From Bacteroidota bacterium (GTDB lineage Bacteria; Bacteroidota; Ignavibacteria; UBA10030): 64,000 nucleotides of DNA. The stretch is from positions 248,001 to 312,000 of the forward strand of contig JALONQ010000001.1 in assembly GCA_025454835.1 (NCBI GenBank). Direction: 5' to 3'. Of this stretch, positions 45,381-64,000 are shown one piece after another; the stretch's first letter is position 1; each line of letters opens with the position of its first letter. Both the position numbers and the translations under genes were made by a program. The notes under the pieces were generated by a model. It made no database searches and was not told the DNA's origin. It saw only the letters and a list, made by a program, of their open reading frames with translations.

Positions 45381-46805
45381 CTACGCCAGATCCGCCTCCG
45401 TTGCCACCGACATCCGCCTCTCGCGGATCCTGTAGATGAACCACGCAGGAACCAAGAAACTCAGGACCCCTGCGACCAACTTGAACTCAAAAGCCCACGC
45501 ATTCTCCACTCCGGCACCTGGCACGAAGGCAAGCAGCACACCTCCTGTTGTCACAACGAATCCCACGACCGCGGCCAGCCTCAATATCGCCAGTCGACGG
45601 AAGTATCCGCTCTCGCCGAGGGCCGACTGTCCGTTGACCGTGAACCGGAACAGCGCCGCGAACATGTACAAGTACGGGATAAGCTGGAGAATGATCGTGG
45701 TCTGCAGAAGACTCAAATACATGTCGTGGACCGAGGCCCCTATGGCATTGAGCAGGATGAAGAGACTCGAGGCCATTCCCTGGACGATCAGCGAGATGTG
45801 CGGCGTAGCGTACCTCGGATGAAGGCGGGCGAGTGCGGAAGGAAGATAGCGATCAAGGCCGATGACAAACGGAATGCGCGCCGACCCCGCCAGCCACGCC
45901 GACGTGTTCCCGGCGGCATTGAAGGTCATGAGGAGCGCGATGGGAATGACGAGCCACGGAAGCTCCAGATCGGTGACAGCTTTCTGTACTCCCTGGAGGA
46001 TACCGTCGATGACGCCGATCTCGGCGGCAGGGATCGTCAACTGCAACGCATACGTGGCCAACACATAGATCACGACGGTGACCCCACCGGCGATCAGGGC
46101 CGCCTTGGGCATCAGGCGCCGCGGCTCTTTGATCTCGTCACCGAGGACCGACCCGAGTTCCAGGCCGACGTAGTTCAGACAGACGATGCTCAGAAGCGAA
46201 AGGACGCGCCAATCAGCGGCGACCGTCGACAGGTCGAACGTCATCTCAGTCGCGGGGGCGCCATGGGTCTGGAGGGCAATATACCCGACTGTCAGCACCA
46301 TGCCGGTCGTGAGCACCGTCCCTGCCACCCCGAGCCGCTGGACCCACTTGCCCACTCCCCAGCCCAAGACATTGAGACCGGTGATCGCCCACAGCAAGGC
46401 GAGCGAAGCCAGCGACAGGAGGACTGGATCGGCAGAGAGCGGAGCCGTCGCTTCGCCCCCGATGAACGCCGCGAAGCCGATCATGTAGAACAGAAGCGTC
46501 GGGATGTAGAAGATGTTGTTCGCCCAGTAGCACCAGCCTGACATGAAACCGTGGAATTCGCCGAACGCGATCTTGCTCCACTGATAGATGCCGCCTTCTT
46601 GTGGAAAGCGGCTCGTGAGTTCGATGACCGCGATGCCTTGTGGGACGAAGAAGAAGAGGAAGCCCAGAAACCAGAAGAGGATGGCGTTGGGACCAGCGCC
46701 CGCGACGACCGGGACGCTGTTCAAGTTCACCAGCGCGGCAATGAGGAAGAAGCTGAGGTCAGAGAGGCCGAGAACGCGCCGCAAGTGCGGCTGGTTGTTT
46801 TCCAA
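45381..46805 (-). CDS. APC-family amino acid permease
   Basis: The 474-residue transporter has about 12 helices. The first helix region LSFFLIAALVNLNSVPVVAG is an APC-type helix break but lacks the usual GxG. Later SRFPQEGGIYQWSKIAFGEF and LNYVGLELGSVLGDEIKEP are typical of the glutamate:GABA antiporter/YjeM-like branch. It differs from the two permeases at 17-20 kb. Substrate unknown; no partner decarboxylase is near. Confidence 0.9.
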   Translation of the reverse strand: MENNQPHLRRVLGLSDLSFFLIAALVNLNSVPVVAGAGPNAILFWFLGFLFFFVPQGIAVIELTSRFPQEGGIYQWSKIAFGEFHGFMSGWCYWANNIFYIPTLLFYMIGFAAFIGGEATAPLSADPVLLSLASLALLWAITGLNVLGWGVGKWVQRLGVAGTVLTTGMVLTVGYIALQTHGAPATEMTFDLSTVAADWRVLSLLSIVCLNYVGLELGSVLGDEIKEPRRLMPKAALIAGGVTVVIYVLATYALQLTIPAAEIGVIDGILQGVQKAVTDLELPWLVIPIALLMTFNAAGNTSAWLAGSARIPFVIGLDRYLPSALARLHPRYATPHISLIVQGMASSLFILLNAIGASVHDMYLSLLQTTIILQLIPYLYMFAALFRFTVNGQSALGESGYFRRLAILRLAAVVGFVVTTGGVLLAFVPGAGVENAWAFEFKLVAGVLSFLVPAWFIYRIRERRMSVATEADLA

Positions 46806-47121: not shown

Positions 47122-48087
47122 ATGGAATTCCTCCTTGTGCTGTGCGTCCTCGTCCTCGCCTACGTGGTGTTCGAGTATCGCCTCCGGAAGCCTGATCAGA
47201 TCATACTTCGCGAGACCGGAAAAGGACTGGCAATCCGCACCGGCTATTTGTTTCCACGCCATTTCAGCCTTCCGGTAAGTCGCACGGCTCACTCGTTCAC
47301 GCAGGTCATCGACGCCTCCGCCCGAGGGAACATTGAGATCCGCGTTCGGTTGGCGGTCACGGTCGCTCCATCGCTCAAGGACCTTGGCACGCTGATGCGT
47401 GTGGGCGGTTGGAAGACCGACGCCGTTGCACGGGCCGCCAAGGAACTGGAGATGGTCCTGCTCGGTGCGGTCAAAGGTTCAACCGAGCAGCAGGAGCTCC
47501 ATGAGATCGGGTCAGATCGTCTGCGCAACCACCTGGTCCAGCACCTGAGCGCCAGCACGCAAGCCCACGGGCTTGAGATCGTGTCGCTCACCGTGGCCTC
47601 GGTCGACCCGGCAAACCCCCAGATCGCGGAAGCCATGCGTCAGCGCGAGCAAGCCAGGATCCTTGAACAGGCAGAGATCCTGAGCCAGGAGGCCCGCATC
47701 GCAGCGGCGAAAGCCCGTCTGAAGGCCGACGAAGAGATCGCGTCGCTTGAACATACCCTGGAGCTTCGGAGGATCGAGCTCAAGCGCGCTCAAGCAGAGA
47801 AGGAATCGGCACTGGCCGCCGAACGGGCCGCCCATGAGGCGCGACTCCGGAAACTCCAGCTGGACGTCGACAAAGAAGAACTTCGACTTCTCAAGGACCA
47901 CCCCGAGCTCCTGTTGTTGACCCCGCAGGCCGCCCGCCTCGCCGAAGCCAGTCAGTCCTTGAAGAACGCCCGCACCGTGGTGTCACTTTCCCCCTCCGAA
48001 ATGCCTCAGGGGAACGACCTCATCGGCGTGCTGCACGGTCTGTTGCAGGGCGCGCTCGAGACGGTCAGGAAAAAGAAGTCCACCTAG
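47122..48087 (+). CDS. SPFH (band 7/stomatin-like) domain protein
   Basis: The 321-residue protein has one N-terminal membrane helix (FLLVLCVLVLAYVVFEY). An SPFH domain follows (residues ~30-170, with SFTQVIDASARGNIEIRVRL and GLEIVSLTVASVDPANP). Then comes a long charged helix/coiled coil (residues ~180-265, AKARLKADEEIASLEHTLEL), as in flotillin/stomatin assemblies that form membrane rings. It is 9 bases upstream of the 1866-residue gene, so the two are surely one unit, and the SPFH protein may recruit the large protein to the membrane. Confidence 0.85.
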   Translation: MEFLLVLCVLVLAYVVFEYRLRKPDQIILRETGKGLAIRTGYLFPRHFSLPVSRTAHSFTQVIDASARGNIEIRVRLAVTVAPSLKDLGTLMRVGGWKTDAVARAAKELEMVLLGAVKGSTEQQELHEIGSDRLRNHLVQHLSASTQAHGLEIVSLTVASVDPANPQIAEAMRQREQARILEQAEILSQEARIAAAKARLKADEEIASLEHTLELRRIELKRAQAEKESALAAERAAHEARLRKLQLDVDKEELRLLKDHPELLLLTPQAARLAEASQSLKNARTVVSLSPSEMPQGNDLIGVLHGLLQGALETVRKKKST

Positions 48088-48096
48088 CCGGCTCCC

Positions 48097-51000
48097 ATGG
48101 ATCACGGGTTGCCGGAACTCCCCGCCGCCTTCCGCCTCCGACCGACCCGCGCGGCCAAGGTCTCAGAGATCAGCGAGGCGACTTCGACCTCGGCCGTGCC
48201 GCCGGAAGATCGGGTCAATTTCCACATCGGCAATCCGGTCCAGGAACAACGACTCACCTCGGCGTACGTGCGAGCCGCTCTCGGCCTGGATGTGCGTGAT
48301 CCGGCCCAGGGGGACGATGCGTCCCAAGCGCTCCTCGAGGCCCTCGAGTGGCCGGAGGAGGATCGCCACCTCGTCGACCTCGTCGGCGACCTCGTCCGTC
48401 AGAGCGGCCCGTATCTCCCTCGCGGCGGTTTCGCGCGCGCGACCCCAAGCGCACCGGTCCTCGCGTTTCTCGATTGGCTCGAACGCCAATCCGAGCCGTT
48501 GTCGTACGACCTTGGCAAGTCTTCAGGTCGTCGCGAGATCATCCTTGCCTCGGGCGGCGTCGTGGAAACGTTGCGTGTCTTCCTTCACGCCCTGAGTGAG
48601 CACCTCGTTCAACGACCCGCCCGTGTCTTCCTCTGGCACCGCGAGCTGCCACCCCACATGCACAGCTTCGACGGCGTCGTCTGCGAAGATCTCCCCACGA
48701 ACGAGCCCAACGCGCTTGCGACCCTTCGCCAGCATGCCGACCAGCACCCGGAGGCCCCGACCTTTCTCATTCTCGGGTCCACGGTGTCGGAGGAAATGCG
48801 AAGGTCCTTGCGGGCGATCAGCCTGACGTCGGCTCTGTTCTTTGTCGAAGCCAACGACGCTCCGAACCATCTCTCGCTTGCCCGCGAAGCCAAGCTCGTG
48901 GACCGCGTGATCCGGCTGCTCACACCTGGCATCCTCCGGTCCGGATGGCGCAACCTCTCCCTGGTCTTCGTCGCAGGCAACGCGGATTACCTTTCGCTGA
49001 TCGAGACGATGCACTTTCAGCTGAAAGGAACTCCCTCCGCTTCCGAAGCGACACTCCTGGCGTACCTCATCGACCGTCCGGCAACAGCCGAAGACCGCCC
49101 GACGGTCCAGCCATTCGTCGTCGAGCCGCCCACGGAGGCCTCCGGATTCCATCCACCGGCGGAACGAGCCATACGCTCTATCGCACGCCATGCAGAGTCC
49201 TTGGGCGAACGGCTCATCGATGCGGCCGGGCAACGCGCGGGAAAACTGCTCGAGCGCGCTGCCGAGCGAATGGAGGATCGCCCCTTGGCGGCCAGCCTCC
49301 AACGCTTCATGGGCCGCGACCCTGCCGGCCTGGCCAGCGACCCGCGATCTTTGTTGCAGAGGGTCCTCGGGTCCACCGCCGATGACGCCGTCATCTCGGC
49401 CCTCGAGGCGGGCTTCTGCTCATCTTTCGTCCGCCACCACCCGTCGTACGACTCCGCCAGCTGTGTGGTCGTGAGCGGATCGTCGCGCACGGCGCTGAGC
49501 CTGCTGGGATTCCACGGGGGCTTGCGCGAAGCCATCATCCCCGACCTGAGCTGGACCTACGAGCATTGTTTTCCCCAGGTACACGCCGTGCCGCTGACCT
49601 CCTCGTACGGACTGGACGTGGACGGCATCACCCGCGCTGTAGCAGCACGTCTCGAGCATGATCCCTCTTGGGCTGATCGGGGTGCTGTCGTCCTCAACAA
49701 TCCGCACAACGCCACGGGCCGTGTCTTCGAGGCCAGAGACGTACGTCGACTCCTCAGCTGGCTTCTCGATCGCAACGTGTGGGTGATCGACGACCTCTCC
49801 TACGACGGGGTGGCACCGTCGGAGGACCTCACCGAGATCATGACATTGCGCGAGCATGCCAATGATCTCGTCGCCACCGGAGCCATCAGTTCTGACCAGT
49901 CGGCGCGCGTCATCACGGTCCATTCGATCTCGAAGACCGACAGTATGGCGGGGGCGCGACTGTGTGTCGTCGAGATCCGTCACCGCGGCCTCCGCAGCCG
50001 TCTGCGGGATCTGACGGACTCCATCGTGCCCAATGTCGGGGCCCTGATGCTTTCCACCCTCTTCTACCGCAATTCGCTTGATGTCACGCGGGCCTACTGG
50101 CGGCTCCGCAACCGGCTTCTGGCGGACCGCATGAGCGCTCTGCATGAAGCACTCCAGCAGCTCCCCGCCGACCGCAATCCGTTCGCCATCGAGATCCTAC
50201 CACCTGACGGAAGTCTATATCCGCTGATGTTCATCAACCGGCTGCCGGCAGGACTCTCGCTCGATTGGATCGCGGCGGGACTGGCCAGGCAGGGCATCGG
50301 GATGGTGCCGCTGACGACCTTCGCCCGCACCGAAGAAGGATTCGAGACCGGTCGCAAGGCGTTCCGTCTCACGCTTGGAGGAACCGATGGTGCCTCCGTA
50401 CTCCGGACAAAGGTCCGGCGGGTGCTTATCGACCTCAACCGCCTCATCGCCGAAGAAGAGGCCAAGTACCGCAAGCGGACCTTCGCGGTCAAGGCCACGC
50501 CTCCACCGCCTCCGGCACTCGTCGACCGATGGGAGGAGACCGCCGCACAGATCACGCAACGGATCGCGCCAGCGCTGCGCCTCCTCCCGGCTTCGGTGCA
50601 CGCCGAGCGATCCGGATCTCGGCAGCATGCCTTGCTCACCGAGTACGTGCCGGAGCGACTGGCATCCTTCCGGCAGCGGGCCTACGACCGTGAGTCGGTG
50701 GTGCGTGCCGCGATGGATCGCGCACGCAGCGAGCAGGGCCGCGGGCTCTTGCGAGCATTGGATCAGGAGCTGGTCAAGGACGACCTCAACCGGCGTGAAG
50801 GAGCCTTCCAACGCCGGCTGTTCGACCGAACAGTCCATCCTACCCAGATGTACTCCTTGCGGGCCGAGACCTCGCTCAATGCCATCGTGAGCCTCCTCCT
50901 CTCCGGTCGGCCCATTTCGCCGCGCGAGATCGATGCCGCCGCCGAAGCCCTTGTGCGCGAGTTCCACGGTTTCGACGTGGCCATTTCTTCGGGGGATGAA

Positions 51001-53697
51001 GCGCAGGAGGTACTTCTCGACCTGGATGCGCAGATCACGGCCGAGATGTACGGAGAGCTGCATTCGGCCTCGATGCCCGTGCCCATGTTGTCGTTCTGGG
51101 GAGACTGGGACGGCAGCAACAGGCCATCCGGGCAGGGTCACCGACTCGTCGCGTCCGTGCTGATCGAGAACGTCAGACGCATGGCCGTACTCCTCGAACG
51201 CCTGCGTGCGCGCGATCAGACCGTCCGGATCGACCCCGATCTCAGGACGGAGCTCGAGCAGCTCCCCGGCAATATTCGTCGCTTCTTCGCTCTCTTGAAT
51301 GAGATCACAACACTTACGCACCACCTCGAGAGGCGCTATCGCGGGGTCCTGCCTGTTCAATACACGGCGGGGCGTGCCCGCAAGCTGGCCATGCAGTGGC
51401 ACCTTCTGCGCGACCCTGTCACAACCCTCTGGCACCATAACGACCGGCTCGAGCGGCGGATGCTTGGCCTCCGGCGGCGGCGCGTCGAGGCGCTCGAGTA
51501 CTACTTCGGCCTCAACAAGCGCCTGCGCAAGGCGCTGCACCAGTGGATCTCGGTGCTGGGACGACACCTCTCCGATGAGCCCCTGCTCCGTGAGGCCGCT
51601 GCGTATCGGGACCTCCTCAAACGCTTCGTCCTTACGCCACGCGTTCATCAGAGCATGGTCGTCGCGCAGGACCCCTTTGCCGTCGACACCACCGTCTTCA
51701 ACATCAACGAGATCAATGAGGTCGGAGCCCGATACGGGAATCCAGGCATGGTGCTCGCCCTCCAGATCAGCATGACCACGAAGGCCGACGCGCTCATCTC
51801 ACTGGACCGAAAGATGCGGGCCCGTCGCGAACACATCCTCCGAGACCATGCCGACGCGGTCCTTCCCCCGGTCCGACTGGTACCGCTCTTCGAGGACCGC
51901 TCCGCCGTCCAAGGCCTGGGTCCATACCTCGACAAGGTCTGGGAGTACGCGCTGCAGAGTCGCCGCATGGACCAGAGCACGCGCGAGCGTTTCACTGAGG
52001 TCATGTCTGAAGTGTTCATCGCCGGCTCGGATCTGAGCCAGCAGATCGGTCAGACGCCGGGCGAACACCTCTACCGGGAGGCGAAGCTCCAGCTCCTCCA
52101 ATGGCTGTCGCAGCGTGGAATTGCCGACGCCGTCCGAATGAAGATGGGAAGCGGTGAGCCCATGCAGCGCCAGGGCGGGTACTATTCCGAGGTCTCCGGT
52201 TCCCCTGCCTTCCTCCGGAGTGAGGAGGCCGGTCGACGGTTCCGCACGCACTTGCGGGCCTCGGCCCGGACGAGCGCGATCTACGCCACCACGCCGATGC
52301 TCGGCATCCACGCCGGCGGCGATCTTCGCACGCTGCAGAGTGCCGTCGCCGAGCGCATCCGATACCTTTCGGCACACGACCACGCCCAGCTGCTCTACCA
52401 CCTGACGGAAGCCCAGCGCCGTCATCATCGCGACCATGTGAGGGCCGCCGAGGAGATCGGCGAGAGTCGTCTGCGGGGCTCGCGGCGGGGCGAGCAGGCC
52501 CTCGAACGCTTGACCGTCGGCATGCGCGACGCCGCGTTGGGGCAGTTCCTCCCGATCCTCACAGAGAACTTCCGCCAGATCCTGTACGGGCGGGAGGACG
52601 ATGTCGTTGGAATTCACCTGATCTCGTATTTCATCGCCCGGACCACTCCCCCGCTTCGGGACCGGCCGACCGTCCGGCCTTCTCAAGGAGGGAAGGAACA
52701 GGGCAGCCGCATCCTGGAGCGCATCGCCGCCACAATACCCTTCTCGAGGTACGGAAGCCTGTTGCGGGCCATCGCCCACAACCAGGCCCAGACCGTCGTG
52801 CTTGGCGTGAACCAACTTACCACAGGACTCTTCAGGGCGCTTGATGAATTTGCGCGCCATCCTTCGATCGAAGGAGATGCACCCACCTTCATTGCGGACA
52901 GGATCCTGCCGCATCTGCCCGTCTACGAGATCCTGCAGAGCCTCAGGTGGTACCATGATCCCGGACAGACGTTCCTCAAGCGTCTGGAACGAGCGCTCCC
53001 AGCAGGCAATTCAGCGCTTGCGGCCCAACGGGAGGATGTGGACGCTATGGCGAAGTATCTGCCCCTCTTCCGGCAGGAGCTTCTACGGCGGCATGGGGTG
53101 GACGTGTCGGAGTTCTTCGACGGCCCGCGGTTCATCCCGCAGCTGCTTCCCACGGTGCGGCCCGACCTCGCCGTCGTCCTGCAAGCGGACCTCTTCAACA
53201 CCGACCCGGAGTCGATGCGGACTGTCATCGGCGGTGCTGTCGATGGACGTTGGATGAAGGAGGTCGAGCGGTTGTTGTCCGTCCCTGCGGAGATCCGACG
53301 CTGGAGAGAGCGTGCCTGGAGTCTGTTGGAGCGACCCGTATACCAACGGGTCGAGAGTTTCGTCGAGCTTGCGGTGCTGCTCCATGCCCTTTCGCAAAAA
53401 GGGGACGCAGCGAAGGTGTTCAGCGGACCGAGGGAGATCCGGCTGTCATCGGGTCTGGCGAACTTCTTCCGTACCGCCCGTACCGACGACGACATGCAGC
53501 AATTCCTCGTCGCCGCGGTCGAGTATCTCAGTGCCGCATCCGAGGGGATGGCTGAGGTTCCCGCCAACATCATCAAGGCGATGAAAGAGGTCGAGCGCAT
53601 TGCGCGCATCGAGGAACAAGCCCTCGACCAAGCCGGACAAGACCGGCTGAGGTTGTACCTTCTTTCGATCGCTCGACTGACGGGGGAGAACGGATAG
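48097..53697 (+). CDS. Giant fusion: aminotransferase-like half, aminotransferase, PEP-carboxylase-like domain
   Basis: The 1866-residue protein has three parts. Residues ~40-340 look like a first, degenerate aminotransferase fold (RVNFHIGNPV, IILASGGVVETLRVFL) with no clear PLP lysine. Residues ~420-800 are a fold type I aminotransferase: NPHNATGR at 535-542, VIDDLSYDG at 563-571, PLP lysine K613 in HSISKTDSMAGARL, and R757 in KAFRLTLGG. Residues ~850-1866 resemble PEP carboxylase: TVHPTQ with H914, GDWDGSNRP at 1002-1010, ISMT at 1224, LVPLFED at 1261, GSD at 1310, and a terminal glycine. The loop that is normally HGRGGSVGRGG is MGSGEPMQRQGG, and the lysine after SD is replaced. No signal peptide or membrane helix. 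Downstream of an SPFH gene. Confidence 0.78.
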   Translation: MDHGLPELPAAFRLRPTRAAKVSEISEATSTSAVPPEDRVNFHIGNPVQEQRLTSAYVRAALGLDVRDPAQGDDASQALLEALEWPEEDRHLVDLVGDLVRQSGPYLPRGGFARATPSAPVLAFLDWLERQSEPLSYDLGKSSGRREIILASGGVVETLRVFLHALSEHLVQRPARVFLWHRELPPHMHSFDGVVCEDLPTNEPNALATLRQHADQHPEAPTFLILGSTVSEEMRRSLRAISLTSALFFVEANDAPNHLSLAREAKLVDRVIRLLTPGILRSGWRNLSLVFVAGNADYLSLIETMHFQLKGTPSASEATLLAYLIDRPATAEDRPTVQPFVVEPPTEASGFHPPAERAIRSIARHAESLGERLIDAAGQRAGKLLERAAERMEDRPLAASLQRFMGRDPAGLASDPRSLLQRVLGSTADDAVISALEAGFCSSFVRHHPSYDSASCVVVSGSSRTALSLLGFHGGLREAIIPDLSWTYEHCFPQVHAVPLTSSYGLDVDGITRAVAARLEHDPSWADRGAVVLNNPHNATGRVFEARDVRRLLSWLLDRNVWVIDDLSYDGVAPSEDLTEIMTLREHANDLVATGAISSDQSARVITVHSISKTDSMAGARLCVVEIRHRGLRSRLRDLTDSIVPNVGALMLSTLFYRNSLDVTRAYWRLRNRLLADRMSALHEALQQLPADRNPFAIEILPPDGSLYPLMFINRLPAGLSLDWIAAGLARQGIGMVPLTTFARTEEGFETGRKAFRLTLGGTDGASVLRTKVRRVLIDLNRLIAEEEAKYRKRTFAVKATPPPPPALVDRWEETAAQITQRIAPALRLLPASVHAERSGSRQHALLTEYVPERLASFRQRAYDRESVVRAAMDRARSEQGRGLLRALDQELVKDDLNRREGAFQRRLFDRTVHPTQMYSLRAETSLNAIVSLLLSGRPISPREIDAAAEALVREFHGFDVAISSGDEAQEVLLDLDAQITAEMYGELHSASMPVPMLSFWGDWDGSNRPSGQGHRLVASVLIENVRRMAVLLERLRARDQTVRIDPDLRTELEQLPGNIRRFFALLNEITTLTHHLERRYRGVLPVQYTAGRARKLAMQWHLLRDPVTTLWHHNDRLERRMLGLRRRRVEALEYYFGLNKRLRKALHQWISVLGRHLSDEPLLREAAAYRDLLKRFVLTPRVHQSMVVAQDPFAVDTTVFNINEINEVGARYGNPGMVLALQISMTTKADALISLDRKMRARREHILRDHADAVLPPVRLVPLFEDRSAVQGLGPYLDKVWEYALQSRRMDQSTRERFTEVMSEVFIAGSDLSQQIGQTPGEHLYREAKLQLLQWLSQRGIADAVRMKMGSGEPMQRQGGYYSEVSGSPAFLRSEEAGRRFRTHLRASARTSAIYATTPMLGIHAGGDLRTLQSAVAERIRYLSAHDHAQLLYHLTEAQRRHHRDHVRAAEEIGESRLRGSRRGEQALERLTVGMRDAALGQFLPILTENFRQILYGREDDVVGIHLISYFIARTTPPLRDRPTVRPSQGGKEQGSRILERIAATIPFSRYGSLLRAIAHNQAQTVVLGVNQLTTGLFRALDEFARHPSIEGDAPTFIADRILPHLPVYEILQSLRWYHDPGQTFLKRLERALPAGNSALAAQREDVDAMAKYLPLFRQELLRRHGVDVSEFFDGPRFIPQLLPTVRPDLAVVLQADLFNTDPESMRTVIGGAVDGRWMKEVERLLSVPAEIRRWRERAWSLLERPVYQRVESFVELAVLLHALSQKGDAAKVFSGPREIRLSSGLANFFRTARTDDDMQQFLVAAVEYLSAASEGMAEVPANIIKAMKEVERIARIEEQALDQAGQDRLRLYLLSIARLTGENG

Positions 53698-56095: not shown

Positions 56096-57988
56096 ATGCA
56101 CCGAACCCTACGGAAGATCCCCGTCATTCTGGCGATCGCTGTGCTGGCCCTGTCGTCTGTTGGCTGGGTCTACCCGGAACATCGTGACATCACACTCATC
56201 GCGATCCGCAACCTGGACGCCGAGCGGAGGGCACTGCTCGACCAGCTGTGGGCGCACGCTCGCCGCGGTCATGAGACCCGTTTCACCCAATCTGTGGCAG
56301 ACCCGGAGCAGGGTCGTGCTCCGCTGCAGATCGACTTTGCCGCCTGGCCTGCGATCGCTGCCGATCATTCCTGCTCGCCCGCGGACATGCTCACATCCAT
56401 TACCACGAGCGAGTGGATTCTCGACGTAGCCGGCGTGGCTGCCGAGTTCAAGCACCGGCTCAGTGAAGCCACGCGAAACGATCAGCGCGACAATGCGATG
56501 CGCGACGCTGACCTTCTGTTGCAGCGGGCTGACCCCGAATATGCCACTCGCTCCGCCGGAAGCCCGGTGCACTATCCGATCGGACGACAGAGCGTGAGCA
56601 TGACCCCGACGCAGTACTTCGACACGTGCTTCGCCGCCGGGGCCGACATGAATGCGTACGGGGCCTATGGATGGTACCACTATAGCGCGCTTCTGAAAGC
56701 CCGACGCTATCGCACCGAGACGTTGAGCGCTGGCGAACGGACCGTCTTGGCACAGTCCATCCTCGCCGACGAGGCCTACGCCGCGCATTTCTTGCAGGAT
56801 GTCTTCGCCGCCGGTCATGCGGCGGTGACGCGGGGAAGCTCCGCAACACGGAAAGGGACCCACGACTACTTCAACGAGTTTGGCTACGAGACGAAGCTGT
56901 GGAATGGACCGTCTGTGGTGCTCGTCGGGGACGTTTACATGCGGACGGAAGATGCAGAGCTTGCCGCCGTTGCGCTTCAGCGAAGCCTGGAGCAAGTACT
57001 GGACGCGGTGAAGGGTATCAGCCCGGTGAACGGCTTCGAGACGACGATGAACGTCGGATCCGGGCCCGATACGCTGAACACCTGCACGGAGTGGTGGGTG
57101 CCGAAGCGACAGTACGACGCTGGGTATTGGAACTTGCTCTCGGAAGTGCTGGCGGTGACGCCCATTCCAGGGTTGGGTGAAGGTCTCGGCGAGCTGCCGC
57201 GATTCCAAGCGGAGCTCGGACCGTTCATCGGCATCATGGCGGCGACGCGAGGATCCGCATTCGATCATGGGTTCGGACCAGGGCAGAACCAGACCGGTGC
57301 GCAGGGTTCAATCGAGTTCATGGTTCAGTTTGGCGTCGGCCTCGAGGGGATCATGAACAAGTCGAGTGACGGTCAGGCGTTCATTGCCGCCGGCAATCGG
57401 CTCGATGGACCGTCGAGTTCGAATGTGCTTGGCGATGCGAGTCTGAAACAGTACGGAGCGCTCTTTTCCGCCATACCAACGCGCCAACCGTATGAGCTGC
57501 GTGTGCGGCTCCCGTTCTGGCTGGTGCCGGGCGACCTGCTCGTGGCCGCACCGGTCCTTCTGGTCGTAGCGCCGGAAATGCTTCCGCAAATGGCCGTGGG
57601 GGCGACGAACGGCGGCCTGATACCGTGGCAGGCACGTCTCTTCACATCCTTCGGATCGTTTCAGTTTGTGCTGGGCCGCGAGATCGGGATCTCCATGTAC
57701 GGATATGGGGCCAACGATGACAAGTTCCTCTACGCCGACGAGCAGGACGGTTTAGTGAAATTCCTTGGCGTTCGATCGGTACAGTTCACCTTCCCGCTTC
57801 TCGAGTATCGACCTTTCCGGGAATTCGCCATGGGCCAGAGTTCGCGCCTGAAGCTGCAGATCTTCGCGGGCGTCGACGTTCCCATGAGAGTGCGTGTCGT
57901 CGATCCGGCGAGTGCGTCGGTGCCGACGCTCCGAAACGTTTGGCATGGTGGGATACGACTTGCTTTCGACTGGCGGCACTATTTCTAG
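56096..57988 (+). CDS. Secreted zinc phospholipase C/P1-nuclease-like protein with a C-terminal barrel-like domain
   Basis: The 630-residue protein has a signal peptide (KIPVILAIAVLALSSVG). Cleavage would leave W24 as the first residue, followed by H29 in WVYPEHRDIT. In zinc-dependent phospholipase C and P1/S1 nuclease the N-terminal Trp and a nearby His bind zinc. HFLQDVFAAGHAA near residues 229-241 fits the H-x3-D and GH ligand motif. From about residue 400 the chain alternates beta-like stretches and ends in LAFDWRHYF, a C-terminus typical of outer-membrane barrels. The function of the fused half is unknown; it may display the enzyme on the cell surface. Confidence 0.8.
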   Translation: MHRTLRKIPVILAIAVLALSSVGWVYPEHRDITLIAIRNLDAERRALLDQLWAHARRGHETRFTQSVADPEQGRAPLQIDFAAWPAIAADHSCSPADMLTSITTSEWILDVAGVAAEFKHRLSEATRNDQRDNAMRDADLLLQRADPEYATRSAGSPVHYPIGRQSVSMTPTQYFDTCFAAGADMNAYGAYGWYHYSALLKARRYRTETLSAGERTVLAQSILADEAYAAHFLQDVFAAGHAAVTRGSSATRKGTHDYFNEFGYETKLWNGPSVVLVGDVYMRTEDAELAAVALQRSLEQVLDAVKGISPVNGFETTMNVGSGPDTLNTCTEWWVPKRQYDAGYWNLLSEVLAVTPIPGLGEGLGELPRFQAELGPFIGIMAATRGSAFDHGFGPGQNQTGAQGSIEFMVQFGVGLEGIMNKSSDGQAFIAAGNRLDGPSSSNVLGDASLKQYGALFSAIPTRQPYELRVRLPFWLVPGDLLVAAPVLLVVAPEMLPQMAVGATNGGLIPWQARLFTSFGSFQFVLGREIGISMYGYGANDDKFLYADEQDGLVKFLGVRSVQFTFPLLEYRPFREFAMGQSSRLKLQIFAGVDVPMRVRVVDPASASVPTLRNVWHGGIRLAFDWRHYF

Positions 57989-62741: not shown

Positions 62742-63626
62742 TTACGGCTCCCTCTTCGACAATTCGTCAAACAGCCCCCTCGCCACGTTGGCGATGGTCC
62801 CTCGTGCGTCTCGCTGATCCTGCCAGCCCCTGGAGAGGATCACCATCACCATCGCCCGACCGTCAGGCAGGTAGATAATACCCGAGTCGTGCTCCACGCC
62901 TGTGATGTTCCCCGTCTTGTGCGCGACGCGCACGTCCGTTGGGAGTAGGGCCGGGATCTTGTCGCGGAATCTCTGCCTCAGCAGCACCTCCACCATCTCC
63001 CGGTCAGCGCCAGGACTCACAGCCTTCTCTTCCGCGACCGCCCGGAAGATCGTCGCGAGGTCCGCCGCCGTGGTCTGGTTGTTCAATCGCCGCTCAAACG
63101 CCTTCCCGTCCTCGACGCCACGCAACACGAGAATGTCGGGTGCCCCCAGCCGCCGCATCGTCGCTGTCGTGCTGTCGGCCCCCACGAGGTCGATGAGGAT
63201 GTTCGTCGCAAGATTGCTGCTCACGGTGATCATCTGCTCCACGAGGTGGCGCACCGTGACCTTTCGGCCCAGCAACCCGTACATCGAGTCGTCCGAGTCG
63301 TCCTTGAGGTCCATGGCGTACGGCGATCCGTCGACGATGCTCTTGAATTCGTTCTTGACGACGAGGCTGTCGTCCAGCGCAAACCGGCCGAACGCCGCCT
63401 GCCGAAAGACCTCGATCATGACCGGGGTCTTCATGGTGCTCGCGGCGTGGAACATCTCGCGTTCATTCCATGCGATCGTGCGCCCGCCGCCCAGATCGAT
63501 TGCCATGACGGCAAATGTCGCTCCGGAGCTATCGACGATCGCGCGCACCGATCCCGGAAGTGCTGACTGTGCCGAGACCATGACGCAACTCCCGATCATG
63601 AGGCAAGTGAACAGAAACGTTCTCAT
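62742..63626 (-). CDS. Class A beta-lactamase-like serine hydrolase
   Basis: The 294-residue protein has a signal peptide (FTCLMIGSCVMVSAQ). It has the class A residues S63-T-M-K66 (STMK), S136-S-N138 (SSN in place of SDN), the ERRLN form of the E-x2-L-N motif at 178-182, and the K237-T-G triad. All catalytic positions are present, so it can hydrolyse a beta-lactam or a cell-wall peptide. The start ATG shares its A with the ribD stop (TGATG), and its stop is two bases before ribE. It therefore sits inside a riboflavin operon, an unusual place. Confidence 0.88.
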   Translation of the reverse strand: MRTFLFTCLMIGSCVMVSAQSALPGSVRAIVDSSGATFAVMAIDLGGGRTIAWNEREMFHAASTMKTPVMIEVFRQAAFGRFALDDSLVVKNEFKSIVDGSPYAMDLKDDSDDSMYGLLGRKVTVRHLVEQMITVSSNLATNILIDLVGADSTTATMRRLGAPDILVLRGVEDGKAFERRLNNQTTAADLATIFRAVAEEKAVSPGADREMVEVLLRQRFRDKIPALLPTDVRVAHKTGNITGVEHDSGIIYLPDGRAMVMVILSRGWQDQRDARGTIANVARGLFDELSKREP

Positions 63627-64000
63627 CAAAGCTCCCGATAGCCCTCCAACAGAAGGCTTCCATCTTCAAAGACCTTCGTGGTCGCCCGGCTGAGGCGAAG
63701 CGGCTTCCGAAGGTCGAACGGCCTCTTCAATGCAAGCGACGACCGTCCGCCACCGAGCATGATCGGTCCGACGAACGCATGCACTTTGTCGAACGCCCCT
63801 TCCTGCACGAACGCCGCGAGCGTCCCTGGACCTCCTTCGACCATCACCGATGTGAGGCCCTCGCCGTACAACACCGCCAGGAGATGCCCAGGTCGATACG
63901 GTCCTGCGCCCGGCAATCCAGCAACGTCGACCCCGAGAGCGAGAAGACGACGGATGGTCGGTCCCGGACGGACCAGCTTCGCGCGATCGGTGATCAGAAT
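63626..64000 (-). CDS. ribD: RibD reductase domain (C-terminal part)
   Basis: The last ~124 residues of a pyrimidine reductase domain: SVMVEGGPGTLAAFVQEGAF and a following AFVGPIMLGGGRS stretch are typical of RibD. Upstream reading continues in frame to the window edge (ILITDRAKLVRPG), so the deaminase half is outside. It overlaps the start of the beta-lactamase-like gene (TGATG). Confidence 0.92.
   Translation of the reverse strand: MLITDRAKLVRPGPTIRRLLALGVDVAGLPGAGPYRPGHLLAVLYGEGLTSVMVEGGPGTLAAFVQEGAFDKVHAFVGPIMLGGGRSSLALKRPFDLRKPLRLSRATTKVFEDGSLLLEGYREL

Follow-up and report, generated by a model that had tools for sequence, protein, structure and literature searches.

An aminotransferase fused to a PEP carboxylase-like domain and paired with an SPFH gene points to an uncharacterised enzyme in several groups of bacteria

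The window analysed here, a stretch of 64,000 nucleotides from a genome of the Ignavibacteria, carries on its forward strand a closely spaced pair of genes, the second of which encodes a protein of 1866 residues. This protein joins aminotransferase-type domains to a domain resembling phosphoenolpyruvate (PEP) carboxylase (PEPC). The features are as follows.

47122–48087, + strand: SPFH/band-7 gene (PF01145), 321 aa, with an N-terminal hydrophobic helix; 9 bases separate it from the fusion gene that follows on the same strand.
48097–53697, + strand: fusion gene, 1866 aa, with an N-terminal segment and putative degenerate aminotransferase domain, a PLP aminotransferase domain and a PEPC-like domain (open frame, homologues).
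48097–49101, + strand: residues 1–335, predicted N-terminal segment of an aminotransferase with the motifs NFHIGNP and PYxPRGG, then a lysine-less aminotransferase-like large domain at about 140–330, also predicted (AlphaFold model, topology).
49384–50451, + strand: fold-type-I PLP domain, residues ~430–785 (PF00155, Foldseek, invariant residues).
50449–53694, + strand: predicted PEPC-fold domain, residues 785–1866 (model, Foldseek, residues invariant in 51 sequences).

Every motif that a first-pass annotation had read in this frame is present, both those of the aminotransferase (NPHNATGR, VIDDLSYDG, K613 in SISKTDSMAG, R757) and those of PEPC (HPT with H914, GDWDG, ISMT, LVPLFED, GSD, MGSGEPMQRQGG and the terminal Gly). 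Relatives, with 42–64% identity to the window protein, turned up at 61 loci when one genome per species was scanned. At 44 of these loci the frame is uninterrupted over more than 1790 aa, intact frames running to about 1850 codons. In an alignment of 45 sequences overall identity to the window protein is 42–60% and 246 residues are invariant; 225 are invariant in one of 51 that includes more distant members. The frame is thus not due to chance, and the proposal that both domains belong to one protein holds. The possibility that two genes had been joined by a sequencing or assembly artefact can be regarded as negligible, and is in effect already refuted, as the same fusion with the same domain order recurs in dozens of assemblies made independently of one another, some of them single-contig genomes. 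The split frames seen in a few relatives, all on draft contigs (G050, G027, G119, G402), give it no real support.

Carriers belong to the Ignavibacteria/Bacteroidota, the Calditrichota and Bryobacteraceae-type Acidobacteriota, so that the fusion spans at least three bacterial groups; by NCBI taxonomy it is present as a single frame in four groups of phylum level. In the tree, the Calditrichota copies are a single group, and so are those of the Acidobacteriota. The family is patchily distributed, with carriers making up about 17 of the 61 close relatives, 15 of 395 genomes in the phylum, 12 of the 40 genomes of the Calditrichota group and 4 of 297 Acidobacteriota. One carrier, Stygiobacter electus 09-Me, is a named strain, which makes the family testable. 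Wherever the contig allows, the copies are full fusions; the exceptions are frames split on draft contigs and frames cut by contig ends, and no convincing unfused copy was found among the relatives surveyed. A candidate stand-alone PEPC-like frame in genome G789 proved to be a contig end, and a weak match in G032 that might have been a stand-alone half belongs to an AspAT-type protein of the ordinary kind that carries a different fusion. No copy in viral contigs was confirmed, and the sole plasmid match was rejected as an unrelated aminotransferase. A search of the open-access literature found no paper on a fusion of an aminotransferase with a PEPC-like domain.

The aminotransferase half could be assigned from sequence, its PLP domain matching PF00155 over residues 457–764 (E 2.7e-15, 56.9 bits against a cut-off of 19.7). 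The residues of the PLP site, namely the Schiff-base lysine K613, N534, D566, Y569, R621 and R757, are invariant in 51 sequences. The model of the N-terminal half (AlphaFold, pLDDT ~90) resembles aminotransferases closely (Foldseek E 2e-14, structural Z 30.6), the matches listed being aminotransferases and other fold-type-I PLP enzymes only. No equivalog model of NCBIfam was reached by the PLP domain; its curated matches are weak and mixed, the best coming from models of GntC, PatB, DapC, CobD and AspAT with every score far under its cut-off, GntC first (34 bits, E 1.3e-8) and AspAT at no more than 20.9 bits against 550.

The first-pass annotation had made no mention of a further feature of this half. 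Structural alignments of aminotransferases from the PDB begin at about residue 6 of the model, though the PLP domain itself does not begin until about residue 430, and in the model residues 148–326 repeat the strand and helix order of residues 456–657. The N-terminal stretch matches residues 430–790 weakly by profile (E 0.037), with the lysine position replaced. Residues 1–335 gave no significant profile match to real aminotransferases, which residues 430–790 match clearly (E 9e-10), and the reading of a degenerate domain is accordingly one of model topology. Residues 1 to ~330 thus probably hold, on the model, the missing N-terminal segment of the aminotransferase and a degenerate second large domain, forming a pseudo-dimer within one chain.

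Assignment of the C-terminal half relied on structure, since profile–profile comparison with seven true PEPCs reached E 0.03 only, in the expected register. An AlphaFold model of residues 785–1866 built on the family alignment (pLDDT 79, pTM 0.81, with low confidence in the loop 1351–1361 and the segment 1520–1557) is predicted to fold as a PEPC. In a Foldseek search of the PDB the first 44 rows were PEPCs and the next the archaeal-type enzyme (E 1.8e-10 to 1.8e-4). In structural comparison the 23 best rows were all PEPCs, with plant PEPC at Z 21.2 (584 residues, 5.2 Å), archaeal-type PEPC (3odm) at Z 19.2 (480 of 530 residues, 3.5 Å) and E. coli PEPC at Z 16.8, before a drop to 13.7 for other PEP/pyruvate-type TIM-barrel enzymes. 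The sequence relation is remote. The suggested match to PF00311 is absent from the window protein and appears in several homologues at E 7e-4 to 7e-5 (E 7e-4 in 4 of 44), the best of them scoring 20.1 bits against a cut-off of 22.4; PF14010, the archaeal-type family, matches 5 of 44 weakly (E 1e-3). A profile of the seven PEPCs matched 41 real homologues below E 100, against 8 reversed and 7 shuffled decoys, with the best 15 all real and nearly all real matches on the same stretch, which is supportive although each match is weak. A PDB sequence profile search with this half found no PEPC. Mean column identity is 65% in the PEPC half and 51% in the aminotransferase half.

For the active site we compared the family with E. 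coli PEPC, in which we take H138 to be the catalytic general-base histidine, E506 and D543 to be the ligands of the divalent metal, and R396, R587, R699 and R713 to be the arginines of the active site, their individual roles being likewise assumed. The equivalences come from motif alignment by eye, profile support being confined to the PLFE-to-GG stretch that covers E1266 and D1312. On this alignment H914 (H138), E1266 (E506), D1312 (D543), R1182 (R396), R1358 (R587), R1523 (R699), R1557 (R713) and the terminal Gly are invariant in 51 sequences, and invariant residues cluster in the catalytic motifs DRTVHPTQ, WGDWDG, TPRxHQ, PLFE, AGSDLSQQ, GxGEPMQRxGG, RDRPTVRP and LLRAI. Other positions are replaced in all sequences inspected: the Arg of GDRDG by W1004 and K546 by Q1315, both invariant, and, throughout the family, R581 by S, N or C at 1352 and H579 by M or L at 1350. 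The HGRGGSxGRGG loop of PEPC reads KMGSGEPMQRQGG in the fusion, where only the equivalent of R587 is kept and K1349, E1354, M1356 and Q1357 are new invariants.

The altered arginine-rich loop and the missing SDxxK lysine, noted earlier for the single protein, are therefore traits of the family, and they are not signs of decay in a lineage, given that what stands at the replaced positions is itself invariant or almost so. PEPC binds PEP at the metal, forms carboxyphosphate and, after deprotonation by a histidine of the mobile loop, adds CO2 (PMC10176493); the equivalent of K546 (maize K606) has been proposed to bind bicarbonate (PMC4085955). Judged from its sequence, the PEPC-like half is neither a canonical PEPC nor a decaying pseudodomain. 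Kept and changed residues alike are fixed across phyla, which speaks against decay and suggests the site of an active enzyme whose chemistry has changed.

A canonical PEPC was found neither in the window's genome nor in the 17 carriers among 61 relatives, and this lack of overlap had suggested that the fusion replaces PEPC. The idea was dropped: 11 of 44 carrier genomes, over several phyla, have a canonical PEPC, so the fusion is not simply a stand-in. The host also has several separate aminotransferases. On another contig of the same genome (C38:847–5200) two aminotransferase genes are followed by an ATP-type PEPCK, possibly an ordinary cluster linking PEP, oxaloacetate and amino acids. For Melioribacter roseus, of a carrier lineage, pyruvate carboxylase, PEPCK and malic enzyme are described, and PEPC is not in the list given in that part of the paper (PMC3534657). 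With PEPCK and aminotransferases in the host and canonical PEPC in a quarter of the carriers, the fusion is not required for aspartate synthesis in general.

The SPFH gene, likewise absent from the first-pass annotation, is the one constant companion of the fusion. Its match to PF01145 is marginal (E 7.3e-6, 26.6 bits against a cut-off of 23.6), and of the 55 loci with upstream DNA, 52 have a related gene immediately before the fusion; this co-occurrence in gene neighbourhood is no proof of physical interaction. The three exceptions (L021, L039 and L051) form a small Bryobacteraceae group with the fusion and no detectable SPFH gene upstream, and provide a natural test of the need for the partner. 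No other neighbour is consistently conserved across the fusion loci. The patchy spread had raised the idea of anti-phage defence, which found no support: PADLOC gave no matches for the pair or for four neighbouring proteins, and there is no recurrent neighbour besides the SPFH gene. PHROGs gave no informative matches. Elsewhere in the window are an amino acid permease related to Glu/GABA antiporters (45381–46805, − strand), divergent from the SPFH–fusion operon and not a conserved neighbour elsewhere, a 630-aa frame without Pfam, NCBIfam or PADLOC match (56096–57988, + strand) and a beta-lactamase family protein (62742–63629, − strand; PF13354 E 3.3e-54). A possibly parallel case of an aminotransferase fusion beside an SPFH gene occurs in G032 (L088:119–3883, contig C7), where a 781-aa AspAT-type protein (PF00155 E 3.5e-81) lies directly downstream of a flotillin-like gene (PF01145, PF15975). 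Its C-terminal half has a P-loop, GPKGTKKT, resembles the C-terminal domain of HPr kinase weakly (E 0.087) and looks PEPCK/HprK-like by eye; G042 has a weak match in a frame of the same length.

As a tentative first choice, we propose that the fusion is a membrane-tethered bifunctional enzyme in which an altered PEPC-type chemistry is coupled to a PLP reaction. The operon would encode an SPFH scaffold protein anchored in the membrane and, with it, a large enzyme that has two active sites, one a PLP site and the other, from sequence and model, a PEPC-fold TIM-barrel site with a general-base histidine, E1266 and D1312, and four arginines. Fold-type-I enzymes build their active site at a dimer interface, and the degenerate N-terminal part may therefore serve the real PLP domain as an internal partner. 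The PEPC-type site would bind Mg together with a C3/C4 acid, phosphorylated or carboxylated, that resembles PEP or oxaloacetate. Since the residues that handle bicarbonate and PEP (R581, H579, K546 and the GDRDG Arg) are replaced throughout the family, it may catalyse a reaction related to PEP carboxylation yet different from it; that the replacements are fixed in all lineages is what one would expect of a change in specificity and not of decay. A 2-oxo acid made or used there would be exchanged with the PLP site, and it is probably the SPFH protein that keeps the enzyme at the membrane.

Next in likelihood, though unlikely in our estimate, is that the PEPC-like half is a non-catalytic sensor through which a ligand such as PEP, oxaloacetate or aspartate controls the PLP enzyme, in line with the earlier suggestion of a regulatory or binding domain. 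The failure to reach PF00311 and the loss of several canonical active-site residues agree with it, and a dead enzyme domain has a regulatory precedent in the phosphotransacetylase-like domain joined to malic enzyme (PMC8100219). The invariance of the catalytic histidine, both metal ligands and the four arginines argues instead for catalysis, and conservation is higher in the PEPC half than in the PLP half. Sensors usually lose their catalytic metal ligands.

The channelling of PEP to aspartate that the first-pass annotation had put forward, with the PEPC-like domain making oxaloacetate and the aminotransferase domain converting it to aspartate, is less probable again. The fold, the retained catalytic residues and the lack of a canonical PEPC in the window's genome and in its 17 carrier relatives would suit such a route, but four equivalents of canonical residues, the proposed bicarbonate binder among them, are replaced in all sequences inspected, canonical PEPC coexists with the fusion elsewhere, the PLP domain lacks an AspAT signature and the PEPCK of the host already adjoins two aminotransferases. 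We consider still more doubtful a role in specialised metabolism or amino-acid modification, with the PLP domain acting like the cyclodehydratases or lyases of the GntC/VioD type and not as a transaminase. GntC gives the best NCBIfam match and appears among the structural matches of the N-terminal half, and the sole plasmid match lies beside arginine aminomutase, dioxygenase, NRPS and PKS genes; against this, the GntC match is weak and partial, and no biosynthetic gene cluster surrounds the fusion. Among these readings a bifunctional enzyme of altered chemistry is the most likely.

A bolder form of the proposal, which we hold to be possible with less assurance, is that of a new enzyme class: a PEPC-fold site repurposed for a different metal-dependent reaction on a PEP- or oxaloacetate-like compound, wired to a PLP site with its own pseudo-subunit and held at the membrane by an SPFH scaffold dedicated to it. 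To our knowledge, PEPC and its archaeal form are the only enzymes with the PEPC fold. The fusion would, if so, represent a third branch, deeply conserved, with the same fold and metal/histidine site and a fixed but different substrate loop, and the fused PLP domain would be a strong hint at the product of the PEPC-like half. This half of ~1080 residues is invisible in current annotation, as no Pfam family covers it. The SPFH partnership, if true, would be among the few cases of an SPFH scaffold with a clear soluble client enzyme.

The fusion works like PEP carboxylase but, on the features tested, is not a member of that family. With PEPC (PF00311; E. coli 1jqn, maize, Arabidopsis PPC1) it shares the overall fold (Z ~17–21), the catalytic histidine, the two acidic metal ligands, the equivalents of R396, R587, R699 and R713, the ISM and PLFE strands and the terminal Gly. 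It differs in its identity of 12–17%, in the alteration of GRGGSxGRGG, SDSxKD and GGDRDGNP, in its score below the PF00311 cut-off and in its fusion to aminotransferase domains. Archaeal-type PEPC (PF14010; 3odm), to which the sequence match is weak, is a stand-alone enzyme of ~530 aa without an aminotransferase. The fold-type-I aminotransferases (LysN 2egy, Thermus AspAT 1gck, ACC synthase 1b8g, GntC 8fft) have the same PLP domain fold (Z ~29–31), the Schiff-base lysine, the Asn/Asp/Tyr/Arg cofactor set and the substrate-carboxylate Arg, whereas the fusion has an extra lysine-less aminotransferase-like domain between N-terminal segment and PLP domain, and its PLP domain reaches no equivalog model. 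With SPFH/band-7 proteins (PF01145) the upstream gene product shares an N-terminal hydrophobic helix, the SPFH domain and a charged helical tail; unlike them, it is short (321 aa), scores marginally in Pfam and is encoded in a pair with the fusion gene.
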